Shown here piece by piece: positions 12,402 to 13,882 of a DNA stretch of 64,000 nt; positions within the stretch are counted from its first letter, which is position 1, and each line of letters opens with the position of its first letter. The notes under the pieces are model-generated. The model was given only the letters and a program-made list of their open reading frames with translations. It was not told the DNA's origin and did no database searches. A program made the position numbers and the translations under genes. This stretch comes from an uncultured Acidimicrobiales bacterium (GTDB lineage: Bacteria > Actinomycetota > Acidimicrobiia > Acidimicrobiales > SZUA-35): NCBI GenBank assembly GCA_937922805.1, contig CALAJV010000016.1, positions 1 to 64,000 on the forward strand, written 5' to 3'.

Positions 12402-13181
12402 TTAGCCGGGTCGCTGGGCCGGACCTTCCAAGGCAAAATCGATCCCGAACCAGGTGGCCAGGGTTTCCGTCCAATCTTGGTCGGAAACAGTAGTAGCCGT
12501 TTGGGCACCAGAACGCTCGAACTTCAACTCGTTACCTATAAGACTGACTCGATCAGGTCCGCCGTCCAAGAGCCTGGTCGCAACCGCTCGACGGTGCCAG
12601 TGGAGCGACCGGTCTGCTTGAAGAATACGCGAAATAGTCTCGAACTCGTTGAGTTGGTGGTTGACCCGTTTGAACCGATACTCGGCCTTAGGTGCCCCCT
12701 CGCTCCACCGAGTAAGGGTCGTGCCCTTAGCCCCGGTCATTAGCTCGAACGGTGCAGGTCCGCCGTCTTGAGGACCGGTTCGGTTTAACGCTAGCGGGTG
12801 GGAGAAGCTGTCGCCGAAGCCCACATCGACAAGGTACGGTTCATCTAAGCCCACTTCGAGACAGAGATGATCGATAACATCAGACGGCCCATTAGCCAGT
12901 ACCGCGGCGCCGATCCGATACACCTTGAATCCGATCGCTTCTAGCAGCAAGGCAAAGGCGCCGTTTAACTCGAAGCACCATCCACCTCGGTTATTGTCGA
13001 CTATTTTGGCCAACGAATAGTAGGGGTCGGTCGTGACCGCAACGCCGGCATAGACATCGAGATTTTCGAACGGAACGGTGCTTAGGTGAGCACGCTGTAG
13101 CCCGTCGAGGGTGGCCAAGTCCAAGCCTACCGGGCCGTCGTACCCAATTCGGTCGAGGTATCGTTTGACATCCAAGCGCAC
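12402..13181 (-). CDS. nat: Arylamine N-acetyltransferase (NAT)
   Basis: The 259-residue protein has the full NAT catalytic triad: Cys in NRGGWCFELN (about 70), His in VIDHLCLEV (about 108) and Asp in YLVDVGFGDSF (about 123). The N-terminal YLDRIGYDGP and HLSTVPFENLDVY segments are also typical. NATs move acetyl from acetyl-CoA to arylamines or hydrazines. The GTG start lies two bases after the stop of the upstream TGA-containing AhpD-like gene, so the two are probably one transcript with coupled translation. The 43-bp gap to the convergent mgsC-like gene holds no clear terminator. Confidence 0.92.
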   Translation of the reverse strand: MRLDVKRYLDRIGYDGPVGLDLATLDGLQRAHLSTVPFENLDVYAGVAVTTDPYYSLAKIVDNNRGGWCFELNGAFALLLEAIGFKVYRIGAAVLANGPSDVIDHLCLEVGLDEPYLVDVGFGDSFSHPLALNRTGPQDGGPAPFELMTGAKGTTLTRWSEGAPKAEYRFKRVNHQLNEFETISRILQADRSLHWHRRAVATRLLDGGPDRVSLIGNELKFERSGAQTATTVSDQDWTETLATWFGIDFALEGPAQRPG

Positions 13182-13183
13182 AG

Positions 13184-13735
13184 CTAGCGTTTCCAGAGCT
13201 GGTCAGCGGTCACGCCAAGAGCTCGATTGAATCGGGCCGAGGCATTCTCCCAGGCAATAATCTCTGTCAGTATCACGATTTCCTCGGTTGAGAAATAACT
13301 AGCTAGCCGAGCAAACAGGTCGTCTGTGACTGCGTTTTCCTCGGGAGTCGTGGCTGTCATGGCGTCGGCGTAGTCCAATGCGGTCAGGGTCTTAGGGTCA
13401 AAGAGGCTCCGATCGAAGGTTGGGTTGGCAATCGTCAGAAGTTGAGCTTCGGAAATTCCGCATTCGCTGCCGACCGCAGCGTTAATGTCCGCTCAAAAAA
13501 CGCAACCGATTTTGGTCGCCACCCGCCGGTTTATGACAGCGGTCATACTGGGCTCGATACCGCCTGCTTTGTCTAACGCCGACCACATGGCCCGAACCCC
13601 TCGGAAAACATCTTCGTTGTGAGCGTACAAGAGATGATTGCTGAGAGGGGCGCCATAGGTCGTCCGTTGAGCGTCGAGCACAGCCCGGACCCTCGGACTG
13701 AGTGATTCTTCGGAGACTTCAGGAATTCGTGACAT
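13184..13735 (-). CDS. AhpD/CMD-like selenoprotein with CxxU motif (TGA at 13493-13495 read as Sec)
   Basis: Two open stretches (13496-13735 and 13184-13492) lie in the same frame and are separated only by one TGA. Read through, they form a 183-residue protein of the size of carboxymuconolactone-decarboxylase/AhpD-like proteins. The segment VATKIGCVF-(TGA)-ADINAA aligns with the family redox motif GCxxCxD, so the TGA replaces the second cysteine and gives Cys78-Val-Phe-Sec81. A hairpin with a GGUC loop follows at SECIS distance. I chose the ATG at 13735 because GGAG lies six bases upstream; another ATG is at 13747. The stop is followed after two bases by nat. Such CxxU AhpD-like selenoproteins are known from marine metagenomes. 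The alternative is a nonsense-mutated pseudogene or sequencing error. Confidence 0.75.
13461..13487 (-). promoter_or_regulatory. Candidate bacterial SECIS hairpin
   Basis: Starting 11 nt after the TGA on the minus strand is a perfect 6-bp stem CGCTGC/GCAGCG (13476-13481 with 13465-13470) closed by the 5-nt loop GGTCG. A further 4-bp lower stem CATT/AATG is separated from it by a 2-nt AA bulge on the 5' side. The loop GGUC begins 17 nt after the TGA. In the well-studied E. coli fdhF element, a GGUC apical loop lies about 18 nt after the UGA. Both placement and loop fit recognition by SelB. The element lies wholly inside the coding frame, as bacterial SECIS elements do. Confidence 0.65.
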
Positions 13736-13882
13736 CAGGTTCTCCATAGTTGTGGCTGTGCAGCCTTAGGGTCGCGAATATAGTCGAAACGTAGCCGGTG
13801 GGTCGGTGAGATTGCTGGCGAGTAGATCACATGGATACGTCACATTGTTGGGTCTAGGAAGTTCTGGTGGCACGATCATAGA

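Follow-up and report, generated by a model that had tools for sequence, protein, structure and literature searches.

AhpD-like proteins of COG2128 (YciW) with a CxxU motif have long been listed among the selenoproteins (PMC1794560, PMC2398784, PMC9312934 (Table 1), PMC13188914). One of them, 'AhpD-like 1', is among the commoner marine selenoprotein families, with 299 sequences in the Global Ocean Sampling data (PMC2398784); a sequence-only reading of the DNA analysed here had named CxxU AhpD-like proteins as a family reported from marine metagenomes, and this source bears it out. The relay of M. tuberculosis AhpD consists of Glu118, Cys130, His132, Cys133 and His137, and the Cys-Cys-His set is invariant across the AhpD-like structures compared in the same work (PMC3141380). 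The published limits for a bacterial SECIS hairpin are an apical loop of 3-9 nt, a stem of 4-16 bp, a G in the first two loop positions, a distance of 16-37 nt from the UGA and an MFE of at most -7.5 kcal/mol (PMC13188914). According to a recent review, aerobic bacteria rarely keep selenoproteins.

The window (the whole stretch of 64,000 nucleotides that was analysed, from an uncultured Acidimicrobiales bacterium) contains a gene of this kind. Minus-strand translation from 13747 to 13184 met only one internal stop, the TGA at 13495-13493, before the terminal TAG at 13186-13184. This agrees with the two frames that the sequence-only reading had joined through a single TGA, with no other stop over 183 codons; its coordinates stood, and the strand, which it had not given, is minus. 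As it had also expected, a plain ORF caller split the gene, into pieces of 84 aa (13493-13747) and 64 aa (13184-13378). The features of the locus are as follows.

13184..13735, minus: AhpD-like selenoprotein gene, 183 aa, Sec81, identified by the in-frame TGA, full-length homologues and third-position bias before and after the TGA
13184..13747, minus: the same gene from the alternative upstream ATG at 13747 (187 aa, Sec85)
13742..13745, minus: Shine-Dalgarno sequence GGAG, 6 nt 5' of the ATG at 13735, read from the sequence
13493..13504, minus: redox motif C-V-F-U (CxxU)
13493..13495, minus: UGA codon predicted to be read as selenocysteine, with TGA in the same column of the close homologous loci and Cys in some distant ones
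13465..13481, minus: predicted bacterial SECIS hairpin with a 6-bp stem (CGCUGC/GCAGCG) and the apical loop GGUCG at 13471-13475, from folding, covariation and RNAalifold
12402..13181, minus: arylamine N-acetyltransferase family gene (Pfam PF00797, 141.5 bits), the next gene, 2 nt after the selenoprotein stop codon

The start at 13735 is better than the ATG at 13747, judging from the spacing of the GGAG and from the homologues, most of whose close members begin with M-x-R-I. Both observations favour the 183-aa form with Sec81 that had been proposed before. The residue numbers used below (Cys82, Sec85, Asp87 and so on) follow the longer form starting at 13747; counted from 13735, the TGA is codon 81.

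Homologues came from a single scan across species genomes of bacteria and archaea, and from searches of the window's relatives and of the phylum. Two pairs of identical proteins (L021/L037 and L024/L053), each pair apparently one genome entered in two collections, were each counted once. The close homologous loci (46-63% identity) numbered 24 with 22 distinct sequences, and all 24 carried TGA at the codon aligned to codon 85. They come from four phyla (Actinomycetota, Acidobacteriota, Chloroflexota and Eremiobacterota): Acidimicrobiales, Rubrobacter and other Actinomycetota, Ktedonobacteria and another Chloroflexi MAG, more than one group of Acidobacteria, and Eremiobacterota. No Cys form was observed at residue 85 among the 22 distinct close sequences. 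Some of the distant homologues also have TGA, and TGC (Cys) stands there in L035 (Kluyvera), L061, L063, L064 and L068. Thus the position at which the sequence-only reading had advised looking for Cys is occupied by Sec, or by Cys in some distant homologues, exactly as the alignment of the TGA with the second Cys of the family motif (GCVF-U) had implied. Cys82, Cys/Sec85, Asp87, Ile164, Asn168 and Asn174 were invariant in the 34 aligned homologues.

Differences between homologues concentrate at third codon positions before and after the TGA, as between the window and L021. Over the 80 codons upstream, the differences at codon positions 1/2/3 were 26/20/52, and over the 102 codons downstream they were 24/20/63. 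This concentration at third positions on both sides indicates that the part after the TGA is translated and selectively constrained. The shared TGA and the downstream third-position bias are far beyond chance.

A SECIS hairpin, which lay outside the checks proposed by the sequence-only reading, was present and covarying. Its stem begins after 11 nt from the UGA, and the spacing from UGA to loop is 17 nt. The UGA with the 37 nt that follow it folded with an MFE of -13.2 kcal/mol and the hairpin alone with -10.1 kcal/mol, so that with the loop GGUCG and the 6-bp stem all values fall within the published limits. The RNAalifold consensus supports the hairpin. The folding energy of the window sequence alone was not significant (z -1.3 to -1.7), and the case for the element, made on aligned sequences, rests on comparison rather than on single-sequence folding energy. 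The outer stem pair (columns 15-31) changes from C-G to U-A in 5 of the 22 sequences, a compensatory change. The loop columns 21-24 are C-G in 15 sequences and G-C in 7, with zero exceptions. This swap (GCG-GTC versus GCC-GTG) is double-synonymous and perfectly coupled, and on the tree it needs about four changes (3-4 in bootstrap trees), at least one of which is forced by well-supported branches. Since columns 21 and 24 are the wobble positions of an invariant Ala-Val, the coupling cannot be explained by protein constraint. In this swap, nature supplies a clean test of the pairing proposed within the loops of bacterial SECIS elements. In the hairpin alignment, pairing held in 96.8% of the cells; shuffles reached 88.2%, and sliding the structure gave 59.1% at most. 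The stem's first Ala codon was GCT in 22/22 sequences, a codon used for only 90 of 517 Ala residues in these genes. In L021, two changed residues move the 3' arm by one base; according to the alignment, the hairpin is kept with the loop GGUC. The window was also searched for TGA codons that lie in frame beside a redox-type residue and are accompanied by a SECIS-like hairpin, which gave 13 sites. The Sec85 TGA had the second-lowest hairpin energy, and it was the only one linked to a conserved protein family.

The selenocysteine machinery was also detected in the genome. As had been predicted, selA (416 bits, cut-off 268), selB (301 bits joined, cut-off 242), selC (tRNA-Sec, 65.4 bits, cut-off 47, anticodon TCA) and selD (364 bits, cut-off 125) are all there above the curated cut-offs. 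selA and selB form an operon on contig C4 with a 4-base overlap, and SelB has the C-terminal SelB-wing_3 domain. The selD gene (L049, C4:6795-7718) is itself a selenoprotein gene, with its own UGA in GAG-U-GCK. tRNA-Sec was found in 41/61 of the window's relatives and in 206/396 sampled genomes of the phylum. Among TGA-bearing genomes it was present in 9/10 versus 32/51 of the others for the relatives, and in 10/13 versus 196/383 phylum-wide. The co-occurrence had the expected direction but was not significant in either sample, given how widespread the Sec trait is in the group and how many of the genomes are drafts. The TGA-bearing genomes without a tRNA-Sec match (1/10 and 3/13, respectively) are probably due to draft genomes and strict filters.

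These data were weighed against two other readings of the TGA. An isolated TGA inside a gene is often the mark of a pseudogene or a sequencing error, and TGA is one base away from TGC and TGT, so a Cys codon might have been lost or misread here. This reading was excluded, with a probability close to nil: independent, unrelated genomes have TGA at the same codon in all the close loci, coding constraint continues downstream of it, the hairpin covaries and the Sec machinery is in the genome. Some termination at a Sec-UGA is usual, which gives a little room to a real stop with an N-terminal product of 80-84 aa, or else to readthrough as another residue such as Trp. Both are very improbable as the main fate of the codon, though slightly less so than a dead gene. 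The part after the TGA is conserved as protein, the Sec-less homologues have Cys rather than Trp, and elsewhere in this genome TGA terminates genes in the usual way, the paralogue L046 among them. Selenocysteine insertion, as proposed from the sequence, is supported by the conserved TGA, the covarying SECIS and the full machinery, and we infer that the internal UGA is almost certainly read as selenocysteine. Overall, we give a probability of about 0.95 that the gene encodes an AhpD-like (COG2128/YciW) selenoprotein whose UGA is decoded as Sec through SelB and the hairpin, with Cys82 and Sec85 as a redox pair. In this mechanism, SelB with Sec-tRNA-Sec and GTP would bind the hairpin just 3' of the UGA, which would then be decoded as selenocysteine.

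The AlphaFold2 model built on the 34 homologues had a pLDDT of 94.0. Its Foldseek matches were AhpD-like proteins: 2prr (TM 0.84), 3c1l, 6k40, 2gmy, PA0269 and the debrominase Bmp8. Both the fold and the CxxU/CxxC motif of the broad AhpD-like/COG2128 CxxU family are thus present. The relay of AhpD in the strict sense (Glu118/His132/His137) is absent, and the model matched the fold of 1knc only weakly. By its predicted fold and redox pair the enzyme is AhpD-like, and by its relay residues it is not AhpD. With the relay residues replaced (Ala70, Phe84 and Asn89), the catalytic chemistry may differ from that of AhpD.

In the folded protein, Cys82 and Sec85 sit at a helix start. They would most likely shuttle between the reduced thiol/selenol form and a selenenylsulfide; Sec occupies the second CxxC position, which in M. 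tuberculosis AhpD belongs to Cys133. Judged by its family, the protein would most likely act on peroxides or disulfide partners as a reductase in an aerobic setting; the genome has cytochrome oxidase (COX1) genes, so the host is probably an aerobe. A selenol would be ionised without a relay, which makes a role as peroxidase or disulfide reductase plausible, and its low pKa may do the work of the absent Glu and His. The idea that Sec specifically replaces the lost proton relay was weakened by the Cys homologues of the same broad family, which also lack the relay His.

Alternatively, the Sec may be real and the protein no peroxidase, acting as a reductive dehalogenase (Bmp8-like) or as a thiol-disulfide reductase on a protein partner. 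In favour of this, Bmp8 (6ohi, 6ohj) ranks with the closest structures found, the protein lacks the peroxidase relay Glu and His of AhpD, and Sec is suited to dehalogenation chemistry, as in deiodinases. We regard this as unlikely, although it deserves far more weight than the two readings rejected above. No sequence match to Bmp8 was found, other AhpD-like folds (2prr, 3c1l, 6k40) match better, the immediate neighbour genes suggest no halogen metabolism, and loss of the relay His in Cys homologues means that it is not special to Sec. More doubtful still is the broader proposal that this clade of AhpD-like enzymes, from presumably aerobic bacteria, has fixed Sec, lacks the AhpD relay and uses the selenol for non-AhpD chemistry such as reductive dehalogenation. 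Deriving the function from operon neighbours was also tried and rejected. The N-acetyltransferase gene is possibly co-transcribed with the selenoprotein gene, but it was not found beside other homologues, which argues against a conserved functional link; the homologue loci examined had unrelated genes around them and no conserved gene neighbour.

The genome has a second AhpD-like selenoprotein (C27:33689-34126; L046, L048) with the motif GCMW-U-HD, and a number of genomes within the genus and family have this selenoprotein too. It shares 35% identity with the window protein and has Sec at the same position, whereas it belongs to a separate clade (100/100) and has another SECIS sequence. The C27-type loci carry TGA at the same codon in 7/7 cases, followed by an identical TCGGCCGTGAGCTGGG and a possible hairpin with a CGUGA loop.

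The dedicated NCBIfam model NF053654 (GroundWater_YciW, 'YciW-related (seleno)protein') matched the window protein over residues 5-187 on profile positions 1-179 with 201.8 bits (E 6.9e-60), below its equivalog cut-off of 310 bits. Two Acidimicrobiales relatives scored 201.5 and 202.5, and members from Ktedonobacter, Rubrobacter, Pyrinomonadaceae, Acidobacteria gp7 and Eremiobacterota exceeded the cut-off. All 34 aligned homologues matched the model (E up to 1e-5). TIGR01926 and PF02627 matched the window protein only below their cut-offs. In the tree, the window protein and the two Acidimicrobiales relatives form their own branch (support 100/99). Judged by these profile scores, the window protein is outside the equivalog in the strict sense and belongs to the wider group of AhpD-like selenoproteins. 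What is confirmed here is a gene that standard gene callers break in two and whose protein does not reach the cut-off of the model made for it.

In comparison with the known proteins, the window protein shares its fold with 2prr, 3c1l, 6k40, PA0269 (2o4d) and Bmp8 (6ohi) at TM 0.66-0.85. By sequence alignment, 2o4d and 2gmy have CxxC at the place of its CxxU, and the solved AhpD-like proteins and Bmp8 have Cys where it has Sec. The relay residues of M. tuberculosis AhpD correspond to Ala70, Cys82, Phe84, Sec85 and Asn89, and PA0269 and its structural relatives carry a His at the fourth residue past the second Cys (PMC3141380), where the window protein has Asn89. The CxxU AhpD-like family is already catalogued, and the gene is a well-supported but ordinary addition to it. 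With it the family gains an Acidimicrobiales branch, from a bacterium that is presumably aerobic, and the general picture of selenium use is unchanged. As in the COG2128 CxxU family 'AhpD-like 1', Sec takes the second Cys position; the likeness to the marine sequences lies in this CxxU motif, and the member described here sits in an Acidimicrobiales genome.
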